DNA from: a virus | Strand: one strand, 5' to 3' | IMG/VR virus record: IMGVR_UViG_3300035698_013143 | Span: 1 to 26,495 of that record | Length of the DNA: 26,495 nucleotides | Shown: positions 2,939-13,839 of the stretch, piece after piece | Layout of the letters: every line of letters begins with the position of its first letter | Position numbering within the stretch: the first letter of the stretch is position 1 | Position numbers and translations under genes: made by a program | The notes under the pieces: generated by a model | The model's database searches: none | Told to the model about the DNA's origin: nothing | Seen by the model: the letters and a program-made list of their open reading frames with translations, nothing else

Positions 2939-3958
2939 ATGAAAATACAGACAAGTAAATTAAAGGAAACCTTAGAAATGATCCGTCCCGGATTAGCGAC
3001 TAAGGAGATGATCGAACAAAGTACCTCATTCGCTTTCTCAGAAGGCAGTGTAGTTACTTTCAATGACGAACTATGCTTCCGAGCCCCTGTTGAGGGATTA
3101 GAGGAATTGACAGGTGCCGTACAGGCGGAGCAATTTTATCAAATAATCAATCGGTTTACGACTGATGAAGTCGTTGTAATGATTAAGGATGAGGAATTAC
3201 AGTTGAAAGCGGGTAAGAAACGAGCAGGCTTAAAATTAGCTACGGAAATCAAACTACCTTTTTCAGAGGTGGAGATTCCGGTAAAATTTACAAAACTTTC
3301 CGAGGCTTTTATTAAGGCTCTGAAATTTTGTGCCCCTGTCTGTAGTAAAGATATGTCGTCACCAATTCTAACAGCCGTACATATCACAGCAGAAGGTCTT
3401 GAATCTACAGACAGATATCGTATCGCACAATATGCCGTAAAGACTAATTTCAAAGAAAATGTACTTTTGCCTGGTGAATATGTAAGAGCAATTTGTTCTA
3501 TTTCCCCAACCCATTTCGCTATATCTGAGGGGTGGATACATTTTAAAAATGAAGATGGAATAATTTGTTCCGCCAGATTAATTGAGGGTGCGGAAAATTT
3601 TCCAAAAACTTCCCCTCTATTAAACGTTGATGGCGTGGAAAATGTATTTCCAACTGATGTAATAGAAGCACTTGAGTCCGCAGAGGTCTTTGGGAAGGCT
3701 GATTCTGAAATAGATTCTCAGGTGGACATCATATTTAAACCGGGGAAAATGACTATGGAAAGTTCCGGAGAGTTCGGCTGGTATAGGGAAGTACTGCCGA
3801 CAGAATATAAGGGAGAGGAAATGCAATTCGGGGTTACACCTTCTTTACTGCGCTATATACTTCGACAGAATCTAACATTTATCAAAACTTCAGAGGCTTT
3901 ATTTTTCAAAACAGAAAATTGGAAGTATCTTACGGTGTTGAAGAGGCATACTAAATAA
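2939..3958 (+). CDS. DNA polymerase sliding clamp (beta-clamp/DnaN-like)
   Basis: This 339-residue protein has the length and repeating strand-helix layout of a three-domain beta-clamp. The N-terminal segment MKIQTSKLKETLEMIRPGLA resembles the first clamp helix and strand. Later come SSPILTAVHITAEGLESTDR, with the typical 'ATDGYRL'-like turn (here STDRYRIAQY), and FAISEGWIHFKNEDGIICSA, a clamp-like central strand pair. It would encircle DNA and tether the polymerase at 5378, loaded by the AAA+ protein at 7995. It begins 5 nt after the TAGT stop, in AAAGAAAATG. Its last two codons and stop lie inside the first copy of a 45-bp direct repeat that recurs after the methyltransferase/SpeD cargo. 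Confidence 0.8.
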   Translation: MKIQTSKLKETLEMIRPGLATKEMIEQSTSFAFSEGSVVTFNDELCFRAPVEGLEELTGAVQAEQFYQIINRFTTDEVVVMIKDEELQLKAGKKRAGLKLATEIKLPFSEVEIPVKFTKLSEAFIKALKFCAPVCSKDMSSPILTAVHITAEGLESTDRYRIAQYAVKTNFKENVLLPGEYVRAICSISPTHFAISEGWIHFKNEDGIICSARLIEGAENFPKTSPLLNVDGVENVFPTDVIEALESAEVFGKADSEIDSQVDIIFKPGKMTMESSGEFGWYREVLPTEYKGEEMQFGVTPSLLRYILRQNLTFIKTSEALFFKTENWKYLTVLKRHTK

Positions 3959-3994
3959 GCTATTTTAAAGTACTTTTTCAGGGGTTTTATTTTT
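3950..3994. repeat. 45-bp direct repeat, copy 1 (left flank of MTase/SpeD cargo)
   Basis: Perfect 45-bp match to 5274-5318. It starts with ACTAAATAA, which here is the Thr-Lys-stop end of the clamp gene, and ends ...GGGGTTTTATTTTT. It contains the palindrome AAAGTACTTT and a weak AAATA-AGC-TATTT hairpin, but no convincing intrinsic terminator. Because this copy includes clamp codons, the copy after the cargo carries a non-coding remnant of the clamp end. Confidence 0.95.
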
Positions 3995-4023
3995 CTATTA
4001 TATGGTCATAAAAATATTTTAAA

Positions 4024-4971
4024 ATGAGAGACGACAAAAATGGTTTTGAAAAAAACAAAGAAAATGTAGTTATTGATTTGTTCGGGAACCCTATTTTCAA
4101 CGAAAAAAGAATAATGAGTGATTATTTTGGGGTAGCACCATTTTCAATATTAAACACAGTTGAGAAAGGCTGGCAAATGAGAAAGAGAGTATGGAACGCA
4201 TTAATTAAGGATAATGGGCAAACAAGAGAAAATGTTTTAGCTGGTGAAACGAGTATTATGAATAAAATTAACGGTGCAAGTATTTTAGACAGCGCATTAG
4301 CTGAATTAATGATAAATTGGTTTACGGAGGAAGGATTTAAAACGTTTGACCCCTTTGCAGGGGATACTATTTTTGGGTTTGTTAGTGGATATTTAAAGAG
4401 ACCTTTTGAAGGGATAGAATTAAGAAAAGAACAGGTAGAATTCAATCAAATACAATGTGATAGAGAAAAATTAGATTGCAAATATATTTGTGATACTGCT
4501 GAAAATATGGATAATTATATTGAAAATAACAGCAAGGATTTTATTTTTAGCTGCCCCCCATATGCCGATTTAGAAGTTTACAGTGATTTACCAGAGGATT
4601 TAAGTACAATGAGTCATGAAGATTTTTTTAAAATCTATAAAAAAGTGTTGCAAAATTCGTTTAATAAATTAAAAAATAATAGATTTGCAGTAATAGTAAC
4701 TAGTGAAATTAGAAATAAGAAAGGGGGGTACATAAAACTTGTACCAAACACGATTAACATAATGGTAGATGCTGGATTTATATATTACAACGATATAGTG
4801 CTTATAAATAGTGTTGGAACGTTACCACTAAGAGCTGGTAAGGTGATGAATGCTGGGCGTAAAATAGGTAGAAGACACCAAAACGTATTAGTATTCTATA
4901 AAGGAGAACCAAAAAAAATAAAAAATAATTTTTCTGATTTAATACCAAAGAATGAATATTATGGAAGCTAA
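4024..4971 (+). CDS. Phage DNA methyltransferase (amino-MTase, N4-C or N6-A)
   Basis: A 315-residue SAM-dependent DNA amino-methyltransferase. The N-terminal segment GVAPFSILNTVEKGWQMRKR is typical of phage modification methylases. Motif I is KTFDPFAGDTIFGFVSGYLK, followed by an acidic strand end (EGIEL) that binds SAM. Motif IV is FSCPPYADLEVYSD, the catalytic PPY loop. The C-terminal HQNVLVFYKGEP is the usual final strand. Whether the target is C or A cannot be told, since Cys precedes PPY. It most likely protects phage DNA from restriction; no restriction enzyme gene is adjacent. It overlaps the SpeD-like gene by 20 nt. Local G+C is strikingly low (lines around 4441-4740 run about 13-30%, against about 42-52% in sampled clamp and polymerase lines), which with the flanking repeats marks it as acquired. 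Confidence 0.85.
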   Translation: MRDDKNGFEKNKENVVIDLFGNPIFNEKRIMSDYFGVAPFSILNTVEKGWQMRKRVWNALIKDNGQTRENVLAGETSIMNKINGASILDSALAELMINWFTEEGFKTFDPFAGDTIFGFVSGYLKRPFEGIELRKEQVEFNQIQCDREKLDCKYICDTAENMDNYIENNSKDFIFSCPPYADLEVYSDLPEDLSTMSHEDFFKIYKKVLQNSFNKLKNNRFAVIVTSEIRNKKGGYIKLVPNTINIMVDAGFIYYNDIVLINSVGTLPLRAGKVMNAGRKIGRRHQNVLVFYKGEPKKIKNNFSDLIPKNEYYGS

Positions 4972-5266
4972 GATTTACAATACCAGCCTATGGGTGGAGG
5001 AAACAAACCCAGACAAATTAAAAAATTTTTATAGTGATTTACTTGGATTAAGTGGTTTTGAAATACTTAATTTTCAGGAGCATTATTTTGAACCTGAAGG
5101 ATATACTGCTTTATGGTTATTAGGAGAAAGTCATTTGGCAATACATACTTTTCCAGAAGAAAACAAAACTTATATAGAATTAAGCAGCTGCACCGAAGAA
5201 TACTATAAGTTTTTTAAGGCAAACTTAAATACAACGGATATTATTAGATATAGCCCGGTTAATTAA
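4952..5266 (+). CDS. speD-like: SpeD-family pyruvoyl-dependent decarboxylase (S-adenosylmethionine decarboxylase-like)
   Basis: 104 residues. The core LLGESHLAIHTFPE is the hallmark of prokaryotic AdoMet decarboxylase, which cleaves itself between Glu and Ser (here Glu59-Ser60) to make a pyruvoyl cofactor. Ser60, His65 and Cys80 have the same spacing as Ser63, His68 and Cys83 of the Thermotoga maritima enzyme, so the active site looks intact. The protein is somewhat shorter than cellular SpeD (about 120-130 aa), mainly at the C-terminus. Substrate is open: AdoMet to decarboxylated AdoMet for polyamines, or an amino acid, as reported for some SpeD homologues. The gene overlaps the methyltransferase by 20 nt; ATG 4961 is a possible alternative start. 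No spermidine synthase is in the window. Confidence 0.8.
   Translation: MNIMEAKIYNTSLWVEETNPDKLKNFYSDLLGLSGFEILNFQEHYFEPEGYTALWLLGESHLAIHTFPEENKTYIELSSCTEEYYKFFKANLNTTDIIRYSPVN
4978..4997. repeat. 20-bp exact repeat, copy 1 (inside the SpeD-like gene)
   Basis: CAATACCAGCCTATGGGTGG matches 8271-8290 in the clamp-loader gene exactly, but the two copies are read in different frames (YNTSLWVE here, CQYQPMGG there), so shared protein ancestry does not explain it. Confidence 0.85.
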
Positions 5267-5273
5267 CGATAAA

Positions 5274-5318
5274 ACTAAATAAGCTATTTTAAAGTACTTT
5301 TTCAGGGGTTTTATTTTT
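5274..5318. repeat. 45-bp direct repeat, copy 2 (right flank of MTase/SpeD cargo)
   Basis: Identical to 3950-3994. It begins 7 nt after the SpeD stop and lies 59 nt before the polymerase start. The clamp-derived ACTAAATAA is non-coding here. Recombination between the two copies would remove 1324 bp, namely the cargo and one repeat, and join the clamp end directly to the polymerase leader. Confidence 0.95.
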
Positions 5319-5377
5319 AGGTATATGTTTATACTATTTAGGATAGAACCTCCGAAATATTAAAGGAAACAAGTCAT

Positions 5378-7963
5378 ATGAAAGGATTCTTCGATGGTAA
5401 TCAATACAAGACAAAAGAAGGTAGAAAAATTAAATCATGCGCCTCCTGTGGGTTGTTGACTGAAAACCCGCTACGGCAGCCCCAAGGTGAAGGCGGCAAG
5501 GGGATTTTAATCATAGTAGACAGGTTAACTCATACGGCGCATAGCAAGGGCAATTTTCTGGCAGATAAACATGGAAGATTCCTTACGAAAATATTAAGCG
5601 ATTTAGGTATTATAGTTGAACAAGACGTATGGCTTATGAGTGCTCACGCCTGCCCCTCACATACACAGGTGTCTAATCTTCAATACGATTGTTGTAACAA
5701 GAATTTGAAGAAACAAATAAAAGAAATAAAACCAAAACATATCATCTGCCTTGGAATTAGTGCCTTTCGTTCAGTTGTCAAGGAACATTATCACAAAGAT
5801 ATCACCGATTTAACCAAGTTTGAAGGTATAAACATACCGGATCAAACTTTAGGATGCTGGGTATCAGTGCTTCAATCACATGATAAAATTAACCAACAGA
5901 AGAATTATTCGGATGTTTTTCGTAATTGGAAAATTCAATTAAAACAGGCGTTTGCGATTGGAAATGAAGAAATTCCACCTTACACTCAATTACAAAACAG
6001 GTATAAGATAATCGAGGAACACAAAGAGCAAGTGCAATTTTTCAAATGGTTGGGGGAACAGAAGGAATTTACTACAGACATTGAAACAACGGGATTAAAA
6101 CCATATAACACAGACAGACATAAGATTGTGATTATTGGTTTCGCCGTCAATGATTGGGCTTATGTGATGCCCTTACCGAAAGGTAAGGCGTTACATTTGA
6201 TGAAAAAAGTTCTAAGTAATCCGGCTATTAAGAAAACTGCTCAGAATATGAAGTTTGAACATACGTGGTTCAAAACTATATTAGGAGTACATACAGAGGG
6301 GTGGCATTGGGATACAATGCAGGCACAGCATATAATAGACAATCGGGTAGGTATTACCGGATTAAAATTTCAAACCTATGTCAGGTTAGGAATAGCAGAT
6401 TACAGCTCACACATTGAAAAACATCTACAGGCGGAGGATAGTAATTCAGTTAATGGGATAGAGCTTGCCATGCAGGATACGACTATTCGGCACGATTTAA
6501 TGAAATACTGTGCTTTGGATTGTATGTGGACGGAAACCATCAAAAACCAGCAGAGAACGGAAATGACGGAGGGGCAGCAGGTTGCCTACGAATTAGTACA
6601 TACAGGTATTTTATCTTTCGCGGAAGCGGAGTGGCAGGGGATGAGAATTGACACAGATTACATTCATAAAACCTACATTGAAATTGACAACAAAATAGAA
6701 AGCTATGAAAAGAAATTAAAGAAAAGTAAATTCATAAGGGATTGGAAGAAACTATACAGGGAGAAAATGAACACCGGGAGTGGTACGCAATTGGCAGACA
6801 TCTTGTATAATCATTTAGGCTTAACCCCTCCGAAATTAACAGCTTCGGGAAAAGGGAGTACAGATGAAAATTCTTTATTCCAGTTAGATGTACCAGAATT
6901 ACATATGATACTGGAGATTAAGAAGTTACAGAAATTAAAGGCGACATATTTGCGTAATTTTGAAAAAGAAGCGATCGGGGGGTTCATGCACCCAGGATTT
7001 AATCTACATACTGTTCGTACTTATAGAAGTAGTTCCAATGCTCCTAATTTTCAAAACATTCCGAAACGAGATAAACAAGCCATGCAGACGGTTAGAGGAA
7101 GTATTTTTCCAAGAAAAGGGCATCAGTTAATGGAAGCAGATTTCTCAAAACTTGAGGTATCAATAGCTGCATGTTATCACAAAGACCCGGTGATGCTGGA
7201 ATATCTTACCTCAAATCACAATGATATGCACGGCGATTTGGCGCAACAAATTTTCTTTATTTCAGATAAAGATTGGGATAAACATTCCACCTGTCATAAC
7301 ATGTTAAGAGCGGCAACGAAGAACGGATTTATCTTCCCACAATTCTACGGTGATTATTACAAGAATAACGCTGAGGGTTTACGACAATGGGTAGAGCTCG
7401 GTACAGGGACTTGGAAACCTAACACAGGTATAGAAATGAATGATGGAACATTCATATCAGACCACATGAGAAATAACGGCATAAGGAGTTTTAAAGCCTT
7501 CGTAGAGCATCTTAGAATTATAGAAGAGGATTTCTGGAATAACAGATTTAAAGTGTATCAACAATGGAAGACAAAATGGATTCGCACTTTCCAAAAGCGA
7601 GGTTACTTTGATATGAAAACAGGGTTTCGGGTTTCTGGTAATATGCGGCAAAATGAAATTATCAATTACCCAATACAGGGAGCTGCATTTCATTGCCTAT
7701 TATGGAGCTTTATCCAATTGTCTGAGGAATTGAAAAGTAAGGGAATGGATACCAAGGTGATAGGTCAAATCCATGATGCAATTATCTTAGACGTTGCCCC
7801 TGACGAGTTGGATGAGATTTGCGTTATGATAAAAAGAATTACGACAATTGATTTACCAAAGGCATGGGATTGGATTATTGTACCGTTACAAATTGAGGCG
7901 GAATTATGCCCCGTGGATGCAAGTTGGGCGGAAAAGGCTGATTATTCGTTAGAAAAATATTAA
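5378..7963 (+). CDS. Family A DNA polymerase with N-terminal uracil-glycosylase-like domain (SPO1-type)
   Basis: 861 residues. Residues 1-190 resemble family-4 uracil-DNA glycosylase, with Cys21, Cys24, Cys92 and Cys105/106 in the pattern that holds a 4Fe-4S cluster; the usual glycosylase catalytic loop is not recognisable, so activity is doubtful. A DEDDy 3'-5' exonuclease follows (TDIETTG with Asp234/Glu236, AQNMKFEHTW, YCALDCMWT). The polymerase part has motif A MEADFSKLEVSIAA (Asp588), motif B RAATKNGFIFPQFYG and motif C QIHDAIILDV (His799-Asp800), where the usual HDE reads HDA but keeps the catalytic Asp. This is the domain order of SPO1-like replicative polymerases. It probably works with the clamp and loader nearby. 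The start has AAAGGA at 5362-5367, 10 nt upstream. Confidence 0.92.
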   Translation: MKGFFDGNQYKTKEGRKIKSCASCGLLTENPLRQPQGEGGKGILIIVDRLTHTAHSKGNFLADKHGRFLTKILSDLGIIVEQDVWLMSAHACPSHTQVSNLQYDCCNKNLKKQIKEIKPKHIICLGISAFRSVVKEHYHKDITDLTKFEGINIPDQTLGCWVSVLQSHDKINQQKNYSDVFRNWKIQLKQAFAIGNEEIPPYTQLQNRYKIIEEHKEQVQFFKWLGEQKEFTTDIETTGLKPYNTDRHKIVIIGFAVNDWAYVMPLPKGKALHLMKKVLSNPAIKKTAQNMKFEHTWFKTILGVHTEGWHWDTMQAQHIIDNRVGITGLKFQTYVRLGIADYSSHIEKHLQAEDSNSVNGIELAMQDTTIRHDLMKYCALDCMWTETIKNQQRTEMTEGQQVAYELVHTGILSFAEAEWQGMRIDTDYIHKTYIEIDNKIESYEKKLKKSKFIRDWKKLYREKMNTGSGTQLADILYNHLGLTPPKLTASGKGSTDENSLFQLDVPELHMILEIKKLQKLKATYLRNFEKEAIGGFMHPGFNLHTVRTYRSSSNAPNFQNIPKRDKQAMQTVRGSIFPRKGHQLMEADFSKLEVSIAACYHKDPVMLEYLTSNHNDMHGDLAQQIFFISDKDWDKHSTCHNMLRAATKNGFIFPQFYGDYYKNNAEGLRQWVELGTGTWKPNTGIEMNDGTFISDHMRNNGIRSFKAFVEHLRIIEEDFWNNRFKVYQQWKTKWIRTFQKRGYFDMKTGFRVSGNMRQNEIINYPIQGAAFHCLLWSFIQLSEELKSKGMDTKVIGQIHDAIILDVAPDELDEICVMIKRITTIDLPKAWDWIIVPLQIEAELCPVDASWAEKADYSLEKY

Positions 7964-7976
7964 AAATTGTATAATA
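7961..7976 (+). promoter_or_regulatory. Candidate promoter element, copy 2 (TAAAAATTGTATAATA)
   Basis: Identical to the 16-mer at 931-946. It overlaps the polymerase stop codon and ends 18 nt before the clamp-loader ATG, the same distance as the first copy from its gene. The TATAAT core suggests a promoter. Confidence 0.4.
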
Positions 7977-7994
7977 TATTAATAAAAAGAAATT

Positions 7995-8924
7995 ATGAGT
8001 TTATACCAGAAACACAGACCCTCAACACTATCAGAGGTGGTAGGCAATCAAAAAACGATTAGCATCCTTGAGAAATATATCTCGAATGAGCTAGAAGGAA
8101 ATAAAACCATGCCTCACGCCTTGTTATTAACAGGGGAAACTGGTTGTGGCAAGACTACAATTAGCAGAATTTTGGCAAATTTATTGGTAAAAAATGCTCA
8201 GAATTACATTGAGTTAGATGCCGCAGATTTCCGGGGAATTGATATGGTTAGGGATTTACGTAAGAAATGCCAATACCAGCCTATGGGTGGTGGGCGTAGA
8301 GTTTACTTATTAGATGAATGCCACAAACTAACAGGGGATGCGCAAAATGCCTTATTAAAACTATTGGAAGATCCACCATATCATACTTTTTTCATATTGG
8401 CAACGACTAACCCCCAACAGCTTATTCCTACGATTAGGGGCAGATGCAGCCATTTAAAGTTAAATAGGTTGTCAGACATTGAGATGAGTAAACTCCTGCG
8501 AAAAACGGCTAAAAAAGAGGGTGTACGCCTTACCGTTGAGGTCATTGATGCCTTAGTGATTGCTAGTCAAGGACACCCCCGAAATGGCTTAACATCTTTG
8601 GAAAATGTTTTAGCCGCATCAGAGGAGGACAGAGTGATAGTGGCAGCGCAAGCCGAGCAGGTCAAAATTGATGCCATAGAGCTTGCCCGGGAATTACTTA
8701 AACCCGGTGGCAGTTGGAGGAAAATCGCTGCCATCTTGCAAGGCTTAAAAGAAGAAAATCCAGAATCTATACGTAGGCTGGTAATCCATTACACGCAATC
8801 AATTCTATTGAAAAGCGATAATGAGCGGGCGGGACTAATGTTAGAATGTTTTATTGAGCCGAATTTTACAAACGGTTTTCCGCAATTAGTGTATAATAGT
8901 TACCAGGTTTATAAGGAGGGATAA
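7995..8924 (+). CDS. AAA+ clamp loader subunit (DnaX/RFC-like)
   Basis: 309 residues. The N-terminus MSLYQKHRPSTLSEVVGN is the classic start of DnaX/RFC proteins. Walker A is GETGCGKT (47-54), Walker B YLLDECH (104-110), sensor 1 is in ILATTNPQQL, and IRGRCSHLKL carries the conserved arginine and Cys of the SRC motif. The zinc-finger cysteines of bacterial DnaX are absent, so it is closer to small RFC-type loaders. The C-terminal helices probably form the collar. It should load the clamp at 2939-3958 for the polymerase at 5378-7963. No second loader subunit is visible. The start is in AAGAAATTATG without a Shine-Dalgarno, preceded by a repeated promoter-like 16-mer. Confidence 0.9.
   Translation: MSLYQKHRPSTLSEVVGNQKTISILEKYISNELEGNKTMPHALLLTGETGCGKTTISRILANLLVKNAQNYIELDAADFRGIDMVRDLRKKCQYQPMGGGRRVYLLDECHKLTGDAQNALLKLLEDPPYHTFFILATTNPQQLIPTIRGRCSHLKLNRLSDIEMSKLLRKTAKKEGVRLTVEVIDALVIASQGHPRNGLTSLENVLAASEEDRVIVAAQAEQVKIDAIELARELLKPGGSWRKIAAILQGLKEENPESIRRLVIHYTQSILLKSDNERAGLMLECFIEPNFTNGFPQLVYNSYQVYKEG
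8271..8290. repeat. 20-bp exact repeat, copy 2 (inside the clamp-loader gene)
   Basis: Second copy of CAATACCAGCCTATGGGTGG, just before the Walker B codons of the loader. See 4978-4997; the reading frames differ. Confidence 0.85.
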
Positions 8925-9232: not shown

Positions 9233-9729
9233 CATTGAAAAAAGAATTAAATTACAAACAGGACGTTACAATTGACGAAGGTGCGCTGGATTATGAATTA
9301 TTGATCCAAGCTGATTTGAGAAGAAAATACGGAGAAAATCTTTCCGAAATGGAAAGCAGGCGGGATAGGATGCAAGATCAACTTGACGTTGTTAAGGCGG
9401 AAATTGATAGAGATATCAGAAATGCGCCAGAAAGTTTTGATATTTCAGTAAAATTGACTGAAACGGTTGTAACGAATACCATTCTACTACAAGAAGATTT
9501 CCGGGAGAAATTAGAGCTTGTACGGGATTTAGAATATGAGGTAAAATACGCTAAACACGCTGTGCAATCAATCGACCACAAAAAATCTGCCTTAGAGGAA
9601 TTGGTGAAATTACACGGACAATCATATTTTGCAGGACCCAGTATCCCAAGGAATTTATCGGAAGAGCGGAAGAAAAAGAATGTAAGTGCTGAAAGTACGT
9701 CAAAAAAAGCAATGAAGAGAGGTAAATAA
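9229..9729 (+). CDS. Coiled-coil protein, possible recombination mediator, 166 aa
   Basis: The protein is mostly helical. Residues 40-75 form a charged coiled coil (SEMESRRDRMQDQLDVVKAE), followed by VKLTETVVTNTILLQEDFRE, a second coil and KKSALEELVKLHGQSYFAGP, and a basic C-terminal tail. I recall proteins of this layout (a TE-hydrophobic segment, then a coil, then ALExLVxLxxxxYFAxP) beside SSB and RecA-like genes in other phages. A UvsY-like mediator that helps load recombinase on SSB-coated DNA is a plausible role, but this is inference from layout and neighbours; no defined motif proves it. It overlaps the previous gene by 4 nt and is followed within 1 nt by a small membrane protein gene. 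Confidence 0.6.
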   Translation: MTLKKELNYKQDVTIDEGALDYELLIQADLRRKYGENLSEMESRRDRMQDQLDVVKAEIDRDIRNAPESFDISVKLTETVVTNTILLQEDFREKLELVRDLEYEVKYAKHAVQSIDHKKSALEELVKLHGQSYFAGPSIPRNLSEERKKKNVSAESTSKKAMKRGK

Positions 9730-10967: not shown

Positions 10968-11280
10968 AAAACATTTCATGGCAACCTATGTAGAGGACGG
11001 GATTCATTCCCGCCTCTGCCTATATCGTGAGGCTGAAAAAACATCATTGGCTGCGATAATTAAGAAACGGCTTGTAGAATTTTCAAAGAAAACAAATCAT
11101 GAAGCGCTTTTGAAAAAAGTTCGAGAACGTTGCCTCATAGAATTTAAAACCTTACGATTAGATGGTGTTGTGACAAATTGGAATGAGTATAAGAAATCTA
11201 AAATACTCCTATTATCCAATAGTGGTATTTGTGAGGAGGATATTGTTGAAGTTTTTAACTTTGAATTTAGCGACAAATGA
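10957..11280 (+). CDS. Hypothetical protein between SSB and RecA genes, 107 aa
   Basis: Unrecognised soluble protein with basic helices in the first two thirds (EKTSLAAIIKKRLVEFSKKT) and an acidic C-terminus (GICEEDIVEVFNFEFSDK). The start is placed at ATG 10957 (10960 is equally possible) because GGAGG at 10945-10949 sits at good distance and the ATG overlaps the SSB stop by 11 nt; the open frame upstream lies within the SSB acidic tail region. The end overlaps the RecA-like gene start by 4 nt. Such coupling suggests a role in the same recombination step, unproven. Confidence 0.65.
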   Translation: MMSKKHFMATYVEDGIHSRLCLYREAEKTSLAAIIKKRLVEFSKKTNHEALLKKVRERCLIEFKTLRLDGVVTNWNEYKKSKILLLSNSGICEEDIVEVFNFEFSDK

Positions 11281-12311
11281 AAAGAGGTAGTAAATTATCT
11301 GAGCAGGTAAAAACACACGCTGAAAGACCCGTGAAAAAAAGTAAAAAGGAAGGTAATACGGAGGTGATGATTTCCACGGGCTCAACGTTATTGGATCTTG
11401 CAATTTCCGGTAAAAGAGTAAAAGGTGGGGGGTTGCCGGGAGGGATTATGGTAGAAATCTTCGGGCCTTCCGGCTGTGGTAAAACTGTTTTACTTAGTGA
11501 AATAGCGGGTGATATTCAAAGAAAAGGTGGGGACGTAATGTTTCGGGATCCTGAGGCTCGGTTAAATAAGGTGTTTGCAAGCATTTTTGATGTAGATTTT
11601 GATTCCTTAGATTATGGCACGCCTAATACAGTTACCGAGGTTTTCACGGATATAAATAAATTCAAAGGCTCCGGTAAGATTAATGGCTGTATGACTGATT
11701 CTTTAGCTGCATTATCTACCGATATGGAAATGGAGAATGCCGATGGAGATAAAATGGGTATGAGGCGTGCTAAGGAATTTAGTGAGGGTTTTCGGAAAAA
11801 TGCGAGAATCCTGCACGAAAATAATATTCTGATGGTTTGCAGTAACCAGATTCGGGAAAATACAGATGCAGGACCATATGGGCAGAAACACACAAGTCCC
11901 GGAGGACATGCTATTGGCTTTTATTCCTCCGTCCGTCTTCGAGCACTTAACCCTAAGAAATTGAAACGGGTTGTAAAAATTCATGGTAAGGAAATTCATC
12001 GAGTATATGGTGTGCAAACACAGATAGAAGTCTATAAGAATACCGTAGATGCACCATACCGAACAGCACCCGTCTCTATCATTTTTGATTATGGAATTGA
12101 CGATATCCGGGAGAACTTACAATTTCTCAAAACGTACACAGGTGCCAGTACCTATGAATTTGGCGGAGATTCTTTAGATAAGAGTATAGAAAAGGCTATT
12201 AATATAATAGAGGAAAAGGGTTTGGGGGAAGAATTAAAACAGGAAGTCATTACCCTTTGGGAAAGTATTGAAAAGAAATTTCAATCTGACAGAAATAAGA
12301 AAAAACGTTAA
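11277..12311 (+). CDS. RecA-like recombinase
   Basis: 344 residues with a RecA ATPase core. Residues 1-30 are a basic extension. The fold begins at ISTGSTLLDLAISGKRVKGG, the usual RecA/UvsX lead-in, with Walker A GPSGCGKT at 63-70. ARLNKVFASIFDVDFDSLDY resembles the RecA ssDNA/ATP region, the Walker B strand is KINGCMTDSLAAL, and NILMVCSNQIRENTD contains the conserved NQIR of RecA L1/L2-region recombinases. It should carry out strand exchange and repair with the SSB and RuvC-like genes around it. UvsX and phage RecA are alternatives within the same family. The start ATG overlaps the previous stop (ACAAATGA). Confidence 0.88.
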   Translation: MKRGSKLSEQVKTHAERPVKKSKKEGNTEVMISTGSTLLDLAISGKRVKGGGLPGGIMVEIFGPSGCGKTVLLSEIAGDIQRKGGDVMFRDPEARLNKVFASIFDVDFDSLDYGTPNTVTEVFTDINKFKGSGKINGCMTDSLAALSTDMEMENADGDKMGMRRAKEFSEGFRKNARILHENNILMVCSNQIRENTDAGPYGQKHTSPGGHAIGFYSSVRLRALNPKKLKRVVKIHGKEIHRVYGVQTQIEVYKNTVDAPYRTAPVSIIFDYGIDDIRENLQFLKTYTGASTYEFGGDSLDKSIEKAINIIEEKGLGEELKQEVITLWESIEKKFQSDRNKKKR

Positions 12312-12338: not shown

Positions 12339-12887
12339 ATGGAACGACTTAAGAAATCACAAGAAGCCACATTAATTTCATTTGATCCTTCGTTTACAGG
12401 TTGGGGGTGGGTAGTAATGAGTAGACAGGGAGAAATTCTTGCTACGGGTTGTATCAAAACGGAACCATTAGCAAAGAAATTGAAAATCCGTAAAGGGGAT
12501 GATACTAATCGCAGAATAAATCAATTAAATGGGGAATTGCTACCAGTAATGAAACGTTGGAATGTCAAGGCTATTGTAAGTGAACAACCAAGTGGAAGTC
12601 AAAATGCCAATGCTGCCAAAATGATAGGAATTGTCTTAGGAATGATACAGACGTATGCTGATATTCTTGAATTACCCATTGAATGGTATAGTGAGGGGGA
12701 TTGCAAAGTGGCTACATTAGGTAAGCGAGCAGCAACAAAGGGGGAAACGATTGAAAAAATGCAGGTGTTGTATAATATACCCATAGGGGGAGAGCCGAAA
12801 TATAAGAAAGAGGCTATTTGTGATGCCTTGCAGGTTTACCATACCGCTAAATTAACAGGGACTTTGATTAAAATGATGAAATTATGA
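12339..12887 (+). CDS. RuvC-like Holliday junction resolvase
   Basis: 182 residues with RNase H-fold catalytic carboxylates where RuvC has them: Asp16 in ISFDPSFTGWGWV, Glu82 in AIVSEQPSGSQNANAA, and a C-terminal acidic pair in KEAICDALQVYHTA. RuvC-family enzymes cut four-way junctions and resolve recombination or packaging intermediates. Phages with RecA-like proteins often carry one. A 27-nt AT-rich gap separates it from the RecA-like gene, and its last codons overlap the next gene by 4 nt. Start ATG 12339 has no Shine-Dalgarno. Confidence in the fold is high; natural substrate is inferred. Confidence 0.85.
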   Translation: MERLKKSQEATLISFDPSFTGWGWVVMSRQGEILATGCIKTEPLAKKLKIRKGDDTNRRINQLNGELLPVMKRWNVKAIVSEQPSGSQNANAAKMIGIVLGMIQTYADILELPIEWYSEGDCKVATLGKRAATKGETIEKMQVLYNIPIGGEPKYKKEAICDALQVYHTAKLTGTLIKMMKL

Positions 12888-13479: not shown

Positions 13480-13839
13480 ATGTATGAAATTACGAAGAAG
13501 TTTGAGTTTGCAGCAGCACACAAATTAAGTCATTTGGAAGCGGGGCACCCTTGTACTAAGACACATGGCCACAATTACGAGGTGATTGTTTGCCTACGTA
13601 CACACAGATTAGATAAAGATGCGATGGTTTTAGATTACCATAGGCTTAAACCTATTAAGGAGTGGCTCGATAAAACGGTTGATCATACTATGTTAAATGA
13701 GGTATTTCATTTTCCTGCTACGGCGGAGAAGATGGCAGCTTTCTTCTTTTCTGCCTTCAAGGCACTATTAAACACCAATGATCTATATTCTGTCACAGTC
13801 AAAGAAACCCCTAATACAACCGCAACCTATTATGGATAA
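13480..13839 (+). CDS. queD: QueD, 6-carboxy-5,6,7,8-tetrahydropterin synthase
   Basis: 119 residues, full length for QueD. It converts 7,8-dihydroneopterin triphosphate to 6-carboxytetrahydropterin in the route to preQ0. Zinc ligands are His14 (FAAAHKL), His29 and His31 (KTHGHNY), and the catalytic Cys is Cys25 (GHPCTKTHGH). Asp and His of VDHTMLNE and the Glu of VTVKETPNTTATYY complete the active site. In phages this enzyme usually feeds 7-deazaguanine modification of DNA or host queuosine synthesis. Only a stump of queE follows and no queC, folE or DNA-inserting transglycosylase gene is in the window, so the product may be a dead end or depend on host enzymes. Start has AAAGGA 8 nt upstream of ATG. 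Confidence 0.9.
   Translation: MYEITKKFEFAAAHKLSHLEAGHPCTKTHGHNYEVIVCLRTHRLDKDAMVLDYHRLKPIKEWLDKTVDHTMLNEVFHFPATAEKMAAFFFSAFKALLNTNDLYSVTVKETPNTTATYYG

Follow-up and report, generated by a model that had tools for sequence, protein, structure and literature searches.

A methyltransferase-speD gene pair between 45-bp direct repeats in a phage replication block: a mobile module with a predicted role in DNA aminopropylation

In the CmoA-CmoX-CmoY system of Synechococcus phage S-B43, a phage enzyme makes a modified S-adenosylmethionine (SAM), and the DNA methyltransferase homologue CmoX transfers the altered group (PMC12783734). The choice between SAM and its decarboxylated form (dcSAM) has been traced in spermidine synthase, where Asp103 of motif I binds the amine of dcSAM and is thought to repel the carboxylate of SAM, and where a D103I exchange yields a weak methyltransferase (PMC3725402). 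Phages also possess SpeD, the S-adenosylmethionine decarboxylase (AdoMetDC); the SpeD protein of the Croceibacter phage P2559s is a bona fide AdoMetDC (PMC9992855). Here we describe a virus record in which the genes for a DNA methyltransferase (MTase) homologue and for SpeD overlap and are bracketed by two identical direct repeats.

We analyzed the entire 26,495-base virus record, an assembled contig that we refer to as the window. A repeat search of the window revealed a 45-bp direct repeat whose two copies, at positions 3950-3994 and 5274-5318 (both on the + strand), are identical, just as an earlier reading of the sequence had reported; no other repeat family of comparable identity spans the region. 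That sequence-only reading had also considered that the 45-mer might be scattered over many sites of the phage as a general regulatory element. In the entire record, its 20-nt core was found at no more than two sites even with up to two or three mismatches allowed; both are the repeat copies, and none was expected from 100 shuffles. Between the two copies lie the MTase-like gene (4024-4971, + strand) and speD (4961-5266, + strand), which overlap, and nothing else that is coding. A separate short similarity links positions 4978-5000 in speD with 8271-8293 in the clamp-loader gene, which match in 22 of 23 nucleotides in a different frame (about 0.001 expected by chance according to a rough hand estimate).

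The pair lies within a block of replication genes. On its left side, the repeat copy holds the last codons and the stop codon of the gene for a beta-clamp-like DNA polymerase sliding clamp (2939-3958, + strand; PHROG 947, processivity factor, 1.8e-40), which is syntenic in relatives. On its right side, the copy starts 7 nt past the speD stop codon, is non-coding, and is joined to the leader of a gene for a family A DNA polymerase (5378-7963, + strand), in which a domain search recognized UDG-family and 3'-5' exonuclease domains. The open reading frames thus bear out what had been said about the coding and non-coding status of the two copies. Directly upstream of the clamp gene resides a gene of the TET-associated glycosyltransferase (TAGT) family (1986-2933); no TET oxygenase was recognized among the window genes examined. 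A gene related to QueD/6-pyruvoyl-tetrahydropterin synthase is present at positions 13480-13839 and may have a role in 7-deazaguanine DNA modification.

Folding of the right junction predicted an RNA hairpin (5300-5357, + strand) whose 5' arm (5300-5317) lies in the 3' half of the right repeat copy and whose 3' arm (5340-5357) lies in the unique leader of the polymerase gene; no such hairpin forms at the left copy. When the repeat was kept fixed, 21 of 2,000 shuffles of the downstream sequence folded as well, which provides moderate evidence since this test was made post hoc. The hairpin moderately suggests that the right junction is the native one. With clamp bases at the left end of the repeat and the leader hairpin at its right end, the locus has the target-duplication geometry expected for an entering cargo, and its arrangement is likely to reflect such an insertion. 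Recombination across the repeat is predicted to excise the cargo cleanly. An empty version of the site with a single copy of the 45-mer was not found in the collections searched, which contain no close relative; neither the exact 45-mer nor its 22-mer core had a match in IMG/VR, and blastn searches with the left junction against phage records returned only weak, chance-like matches.

Several other readings of the repeat and of its cargo were rejected. The 45-mer does not fold when taken alone and contains no terminator-like site, and it was dismissed as an intrinsic terminator. A transposon or insertion sequence, already disfavored by the sequence-only reading, was rejected as well, since only the MTase and SpeD genes lie between the repeats and neither a transposase nor a bracketing inverted repeat was seen among the window's open reading frames and repeats. 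The G+C content of the MTase and speD genes (30.5% and 30.7%; GC3 24-26%) is indeed lower than that of the clamp (39.3%) and polymerase (38.2%) genes, as had been pointed out, but composition alone is weak evidence for a foreign origin since some other small genes of the window reach the same AT-richness (GC3 20-25%).

To place the repeat in a wider context, we compared the sequence preceding the MTase gene with that following speD at 119 loci. A long exact match was present only in the window (45 nt) and at locus L187 (73 nt); the longest exact match at the remaining loci was 16 nt or less. L187 derives from a phage unrelated to that of the window and is an independent contig. It carries an intergenic leader of about 160 nt that is repeated with few mismatches, the first copy preceding two small open reading frames and the gene pair, and the second lying directly before the next gene. 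This leader occurs only twice in the L187 record. Two independent bracketed cases around the same module support its homology-mediated gain or loss, though two out of 119 loci are a minority.

The duplicated element of L187 is a leader-like intergenic region, and T4-type phages have shuffling cassettes termed PeSL (cited in PMC4503421). By analogy with such promoter/stem-loop cassettes, the 45-bp repeat might be a selected regulatory leader in front of the MTase and polymerase genes and not an insertion scar. We regard this as doubtful, although it deserves the most attention among the alternatives. PeSL-type elements are repeated promoter and stem-loop units at many gene borders, whereas the 45-mer occurs only twice in the record, contains no sigma-70-like promoter match, and is associated with a hairpin at its right copy only. 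Moreover, its left copy starts inside the clamp coding sequence. Duplication of a target at insertion accommodates this position, and we infer that such a duplication took place.

The sequence-only reading had named the cargo genes correctly (Pfam N6_N4_Mtase, 1.4e-11; AdoMet_dc, 2.9e-14). It had treated them as generic cargo; our data show that they form a conserved operon that bears the signature of a change in cofactor. The MTase-like protein, for which we propose a function as a DNA aminopropyltransferase, was assigned from its Pfam match, which lies above the cut-off, from PHROG 12517/498, from its predicted structure, and from a motif contrast described below. Its structure model (pLDDT 83, pTM 0.82) has the Rossmann architecture of class I MTases and matches members of this fold; together with motif I (FAGDTIFG) and motif IV (SCPPY), it places the protein among the N6/N4 amino-DNA MTases. 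SpeD is an S-adenosylmethionine decarboxylase proenzyme whose gene starts at position 4952 in the list of open reading frames. Its residues E59, S60, H65, and C80 are conserved, and S60, H65, and C80 align with S63, H68, and C83 of the Thermotoga maritima AdoMetDC, the self-processing and catalytic residues of class 1b enzymes. Within the set of partnered SpeD proteins, the E/S/H/H residues are present in 130 of 131 (one gap) and the cysteine in all 131. The window SpeD is 51% identical to that of phage P2559s, whose gene likewise overlaps a homologous MTase gene, and this homology suggests that it decarboxylates AdoMet and not Arg or Orn.

Unrelated phages share the MTase-SpeD pair, among them Croceibacter phage P2559S, Pseudomonas phage ZRG1, L019-L021, and many IMG/VR contigs. 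Cultured, prophage-bearing strains that have the pair include Spirosoma spitsbergense DSM 19989, Dysgonomonas sp. PF1-14, and Phocaeicola coprocola DSM 17136. SpeD adjoins the MTase in 76 of the 77 nearest viral MTases, a set retrieved with a scan pattern that contained FAGD and hence favors the D form of motif I, a bias that affects neither the SpeD scan nor the genome scan with the FSCPPY pattern. Conversely, 67 of the 72 loci of this SpeD subfamily have the MTase next to speD, and the two genes overlap or lie no more than 20 nt apart in 127 of 131 distinct pairs. An enzyme that makes a SAM analogue is thus encoded beside a DNA transferase in overlapping genes of unrelated phages. In the MTase tree, the window protein groups with those of the unrelated phages L104-L108 (SH-aLRT 95). 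Apart from L041/L108, the L104-L108 records, which are fragments, yielded no family A polymerase of this type. These data demonstrate that the module is horizontally mobile between phages. Several pair-bearing phages encode the MTase as a fusion with a ParB-type domain, and the length of most viral MTases of our set would allow for one; the window MTase has no ParB domain and is located in a replication block. At L202, MTase and speD are separated by a second ParB-fused MTase-like open reading frame (3986-5020), which seems to have neither the motif I nor the SCPPY stretch.

Partnered MTases differ from their partnerless homologues in motif I. Those that are paired with SpeD have FAGD(T/S/A)xFG, whereas the partnerless homologues, a clade mostly from bacterial genomes without SpeD, have GGSVRG. 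D114 and F117 (I117 once) are present in every readable partnered MTase, and G114/R117 in 39 partnerless ones; two exceptions, L179 and L312, have the aspartate and no SpeD that we could find. When the genome scan is taken alone, all 22 MTases with SpeD have GD, and those without SpeD comprise 38 with GG and one with GD (Fisher's exact test, 1e-15, with relatedness ignored). Columns 61, 114, 117, 119, 140, and 224 separate the dereplicated partnered and partnerless rows completely. Since the D/G exchange and the presence of SpeD both map to essentially a single branch of the MTase tree, this correlation represents one event that was kept over much divergence, not many.

The loop that follows the first strand in class I enzymes is the place where the methionine part of SAM is bound, and the structure model puts D114 into this loop. 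Judged by motif order, it would correspond to the loop of spermidine synthase that carries Asp103. The pairing with SpeD leads to the prediction that decarboxylated SAM is the donor and aminopropyl the transferred group, and the SCPPY motif suggests that an exocyclic amine is the target. Use of dcSAM by the MTase would be in keeping with the acidic residue at position 114.

It is conceivable that the MTase methylates DNA with SAM in the usual way, that SpeD serves spermidine synthesis for DNA condensation or packaging with the aid of the host SpeE, and that both genes travel together since each of them benefits the phage DNA. E. coli regains spermidine through phage SpeD homologues, that of P2559s among them (PMC9992855), and in most phages the pair has terminase-like genes close by. 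Recurrent hypermodification genes did not stand out among the neighbors of the pair, which are mainly terminase-like families. We nevertheless consider this explanation unlikely. A search that was positive for control genomes detected no spermidine synthase in any of 30 module-bearing records, many phages carry SpeD outside this pairing (PMC9992855), and neither the near-obligate overlap with a single MTase clade nor the motif I exchange in exactly that clade is explained by it.

The position between clamp and polymerase was assessed in other phages. The nearest polymerase in the collections searched, that of L003, is 62% identical. We compared 56 non-redundant clamp-polymerase junctions, all from more distantly related phages. 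In 44 of them the two genes are less than 70 nt apart; the other 12 hold cargo, for example a D12 adenine MTase in L013, a C5 MTase in L032, and an SspD-like protein in L099, and in L058 an N6/N4 MTase accompanied by an SNF2 helicase and a radical-SAM-like protein. These empty and occupied junctions indicate that a real and variable slot for DNA-modification genes exists at this position. The gap between the polymerase and clamp-loader genes contained neither any of the homologous MTases nor any of the cargo queries. The sequence-only reading had proposed a swap site marked by the repeat and had suggested looking for other cargo between two copies. Its slot finds support here, but no bracketing repeats were present at the other cargo-bearing clamp-polymerase junctions examined, and the repeat is therefore not a general signature of the slot. 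As for the polymerase genes, L009/L077 have an intein-like insertion in the UDG domain (about 3755-5971), and L011 and L013 have inserts of about 1 kb inside the polymerase domain.

Two relatives possess the module itself near this slot. L109 has the order clamp-MTase-SpeD as found in the window, and no repeat; in L041, the MTase, a 284-aa open reading frame, and SpeD lie directly before the clamp. This open reading frame (4883-5737) gave a weak match to LPG_synthase_C (E 0.037), a lysyltransferase-type acyltransferase domain; if real, it could extend the aminopropyl group as an acyltransferase. A TTGTATAATA-like upstream element, probably a phage promoter, occurs in L041 at 946-981, 3290-3325, and 9337-9372 and in the window at 924-967 and 7954-7997; it is absent from the 45-bp repeat. 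On account of L109, one might assume that the pair is ancestral at this place and that the repeat arose later through an unrelated local duplication or repair event. We hold this to be distinctly unlikely: in the polymerase tree, the sister of the window is L003, which is without the pair, followed by L041, with L109 far away, and in the MTase tree the window protein clusters with L104-L108 without a specific affinity to L109. The earlier reading had stated that finding the same two genes without repeats in all relatives would speak against an insertion; they are unbracketed in L109 and bracketed in the unrelated L187. Taken together, the observation on the repeats has been confirmed, their interpretation as the trace of an insertion is likely, and that of a swap site is supported in part. 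We consider the cargo a more important finding than the repeat.

Phage SAM lyases are known for counter-defense (PMC7877911), and SpeD could similarly act as a SAM sink against host restriction or methylation while an MTase with low SAM demand protects the phage DNA; this is very improbable, since a SAM-needing partner would be starved and D114/F117 would not be accounted for. That the repeat is an artefact of a metagenomic contig assembly is hardly credible, given that both junctions are gene-coherent with borders that fit clamp and polymerase, and that the independent contig L187 has a comparable bracket with diverged copies.

The explanation that we favor is that a mobile two-gene DNA-modification module entered the variable clamp-polymerase slot, whereby a 45-bp stretch of the clamp tail and polymerase leader would have been duplicated on either side. 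In this way, the clamp would keep its stop codon and the polymerase its leader hairpin, and a crossover between the copies could delete the 1,324-bp cassette scarlessly. The phage's own RecA/UvsX-like recombinase (11277-12311, + strand; PHROG 97, 2.9e-47) and RuvC-like Holliday junction resolvase (12339-12887, + strand; PHROG 159, 2.2e-18) would probably act on this 45-bp homology and in gain or loss of the cassette. SpeD is envisioned to convert SAM into dcSAM, and the MTase-like partner, its motif I changed from G..R to D..F, to move the aminopropyl group from dcSAM to the amino group of a DNA base, which may protect the DNA from host nucleases. As a whole, this combination of slot insertion with duplication and a dcSAM-based modification module appears reasonably probable to us, with ample room for error.

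Extending this proposal, we lean slightly toward the view that many phages and prophages carry a DNA aminopropylation system composed of SpeD and a charge-switched N6/N4 MTase, that the cationic bases block nucleases or mark phage DNA, and that the module spreads, in at least two cases between duplicated leaders that permit excision by homologous recombination. A search of the open-access full-text literature retrieved no report of dcSAM-dependent DNA modification or aminopropylated DNA, an absence that is weak since only open-access literature was covered. To the best of our knowledge, no aminopropylated DNA is known. If the proposal holds true, a phage DNA transferase would use decarboxylated SAM and place a cationic aminopropyl group on DNA, a new kind of DNA modification with aminopropyl instead of methyl; it would join carboxy-SAM as a second natural route via a SAM analogue and directly explain a class of phage SpeD genes that have so far been read as polyamine genes. 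Croceibacter phage P2559S is a cultured phage with a proven SpeD, and the chemistry can be tested there. The repeat and the variable slot would also show how modification genes are gained and lost in the replication blocks of phages.

The arrangement at the locus resembles the PeSL cassettes of T4-type phages (cited in PMC4503421) and moron insertion in that accessory genes sit between intergenic leaders that are repeated, one of them with a stem-loop, and that provide homology for gain and loss; in the window, a single pair of copies includes clamp coding bases and is not used recurrently in the record. The ParB-fused N6/N4 DNA MTases (PHROG 498/12517; Listeria phage B054, Enterococcus phage phiFL3A) have a homologous catalytic domain with SCPPY, and the window protein is without ParB. 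The main text on the class 1b SpeD of P2559s, the 51% identical and proven AdoMetDC encoded in overlap with a homologous MTase gene, is silent on methyltransferases and DNA modification and assigns the enzyme to polyamine metabolism (PMC9992855). Spermidine synthase and putrescine N-methyltransferase differ in a single acidic residue after motif I that determines whether dcSAM (aminopropyl) or SAM (methyl) is used (PMC3725402), and the MTases studied here are similar in having Asp in the motif I loop of the partnered clade and Gly in that of the partnerless clade; they differ in belonging to another family and in having DNA, not a polyamine, as the proposed substrate. CmoX is a C5-cytosine MTase homologue that uses carboxy-SAM, whereas the window encodes an N6/N4-type (SCPPY) homologue together with SpeD, with dcSAM as the predicted donor and aminopropyl as the predicted group. 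Both systems place a SAM-analogue enzyme beside a DNA MTase homologue, with analogue transfer predicted in the present case; in both, a key charged residue goes with the choice of cofactor, again as a prediction for the present case, and ParB-domain proteins occur in many neighborhoods.
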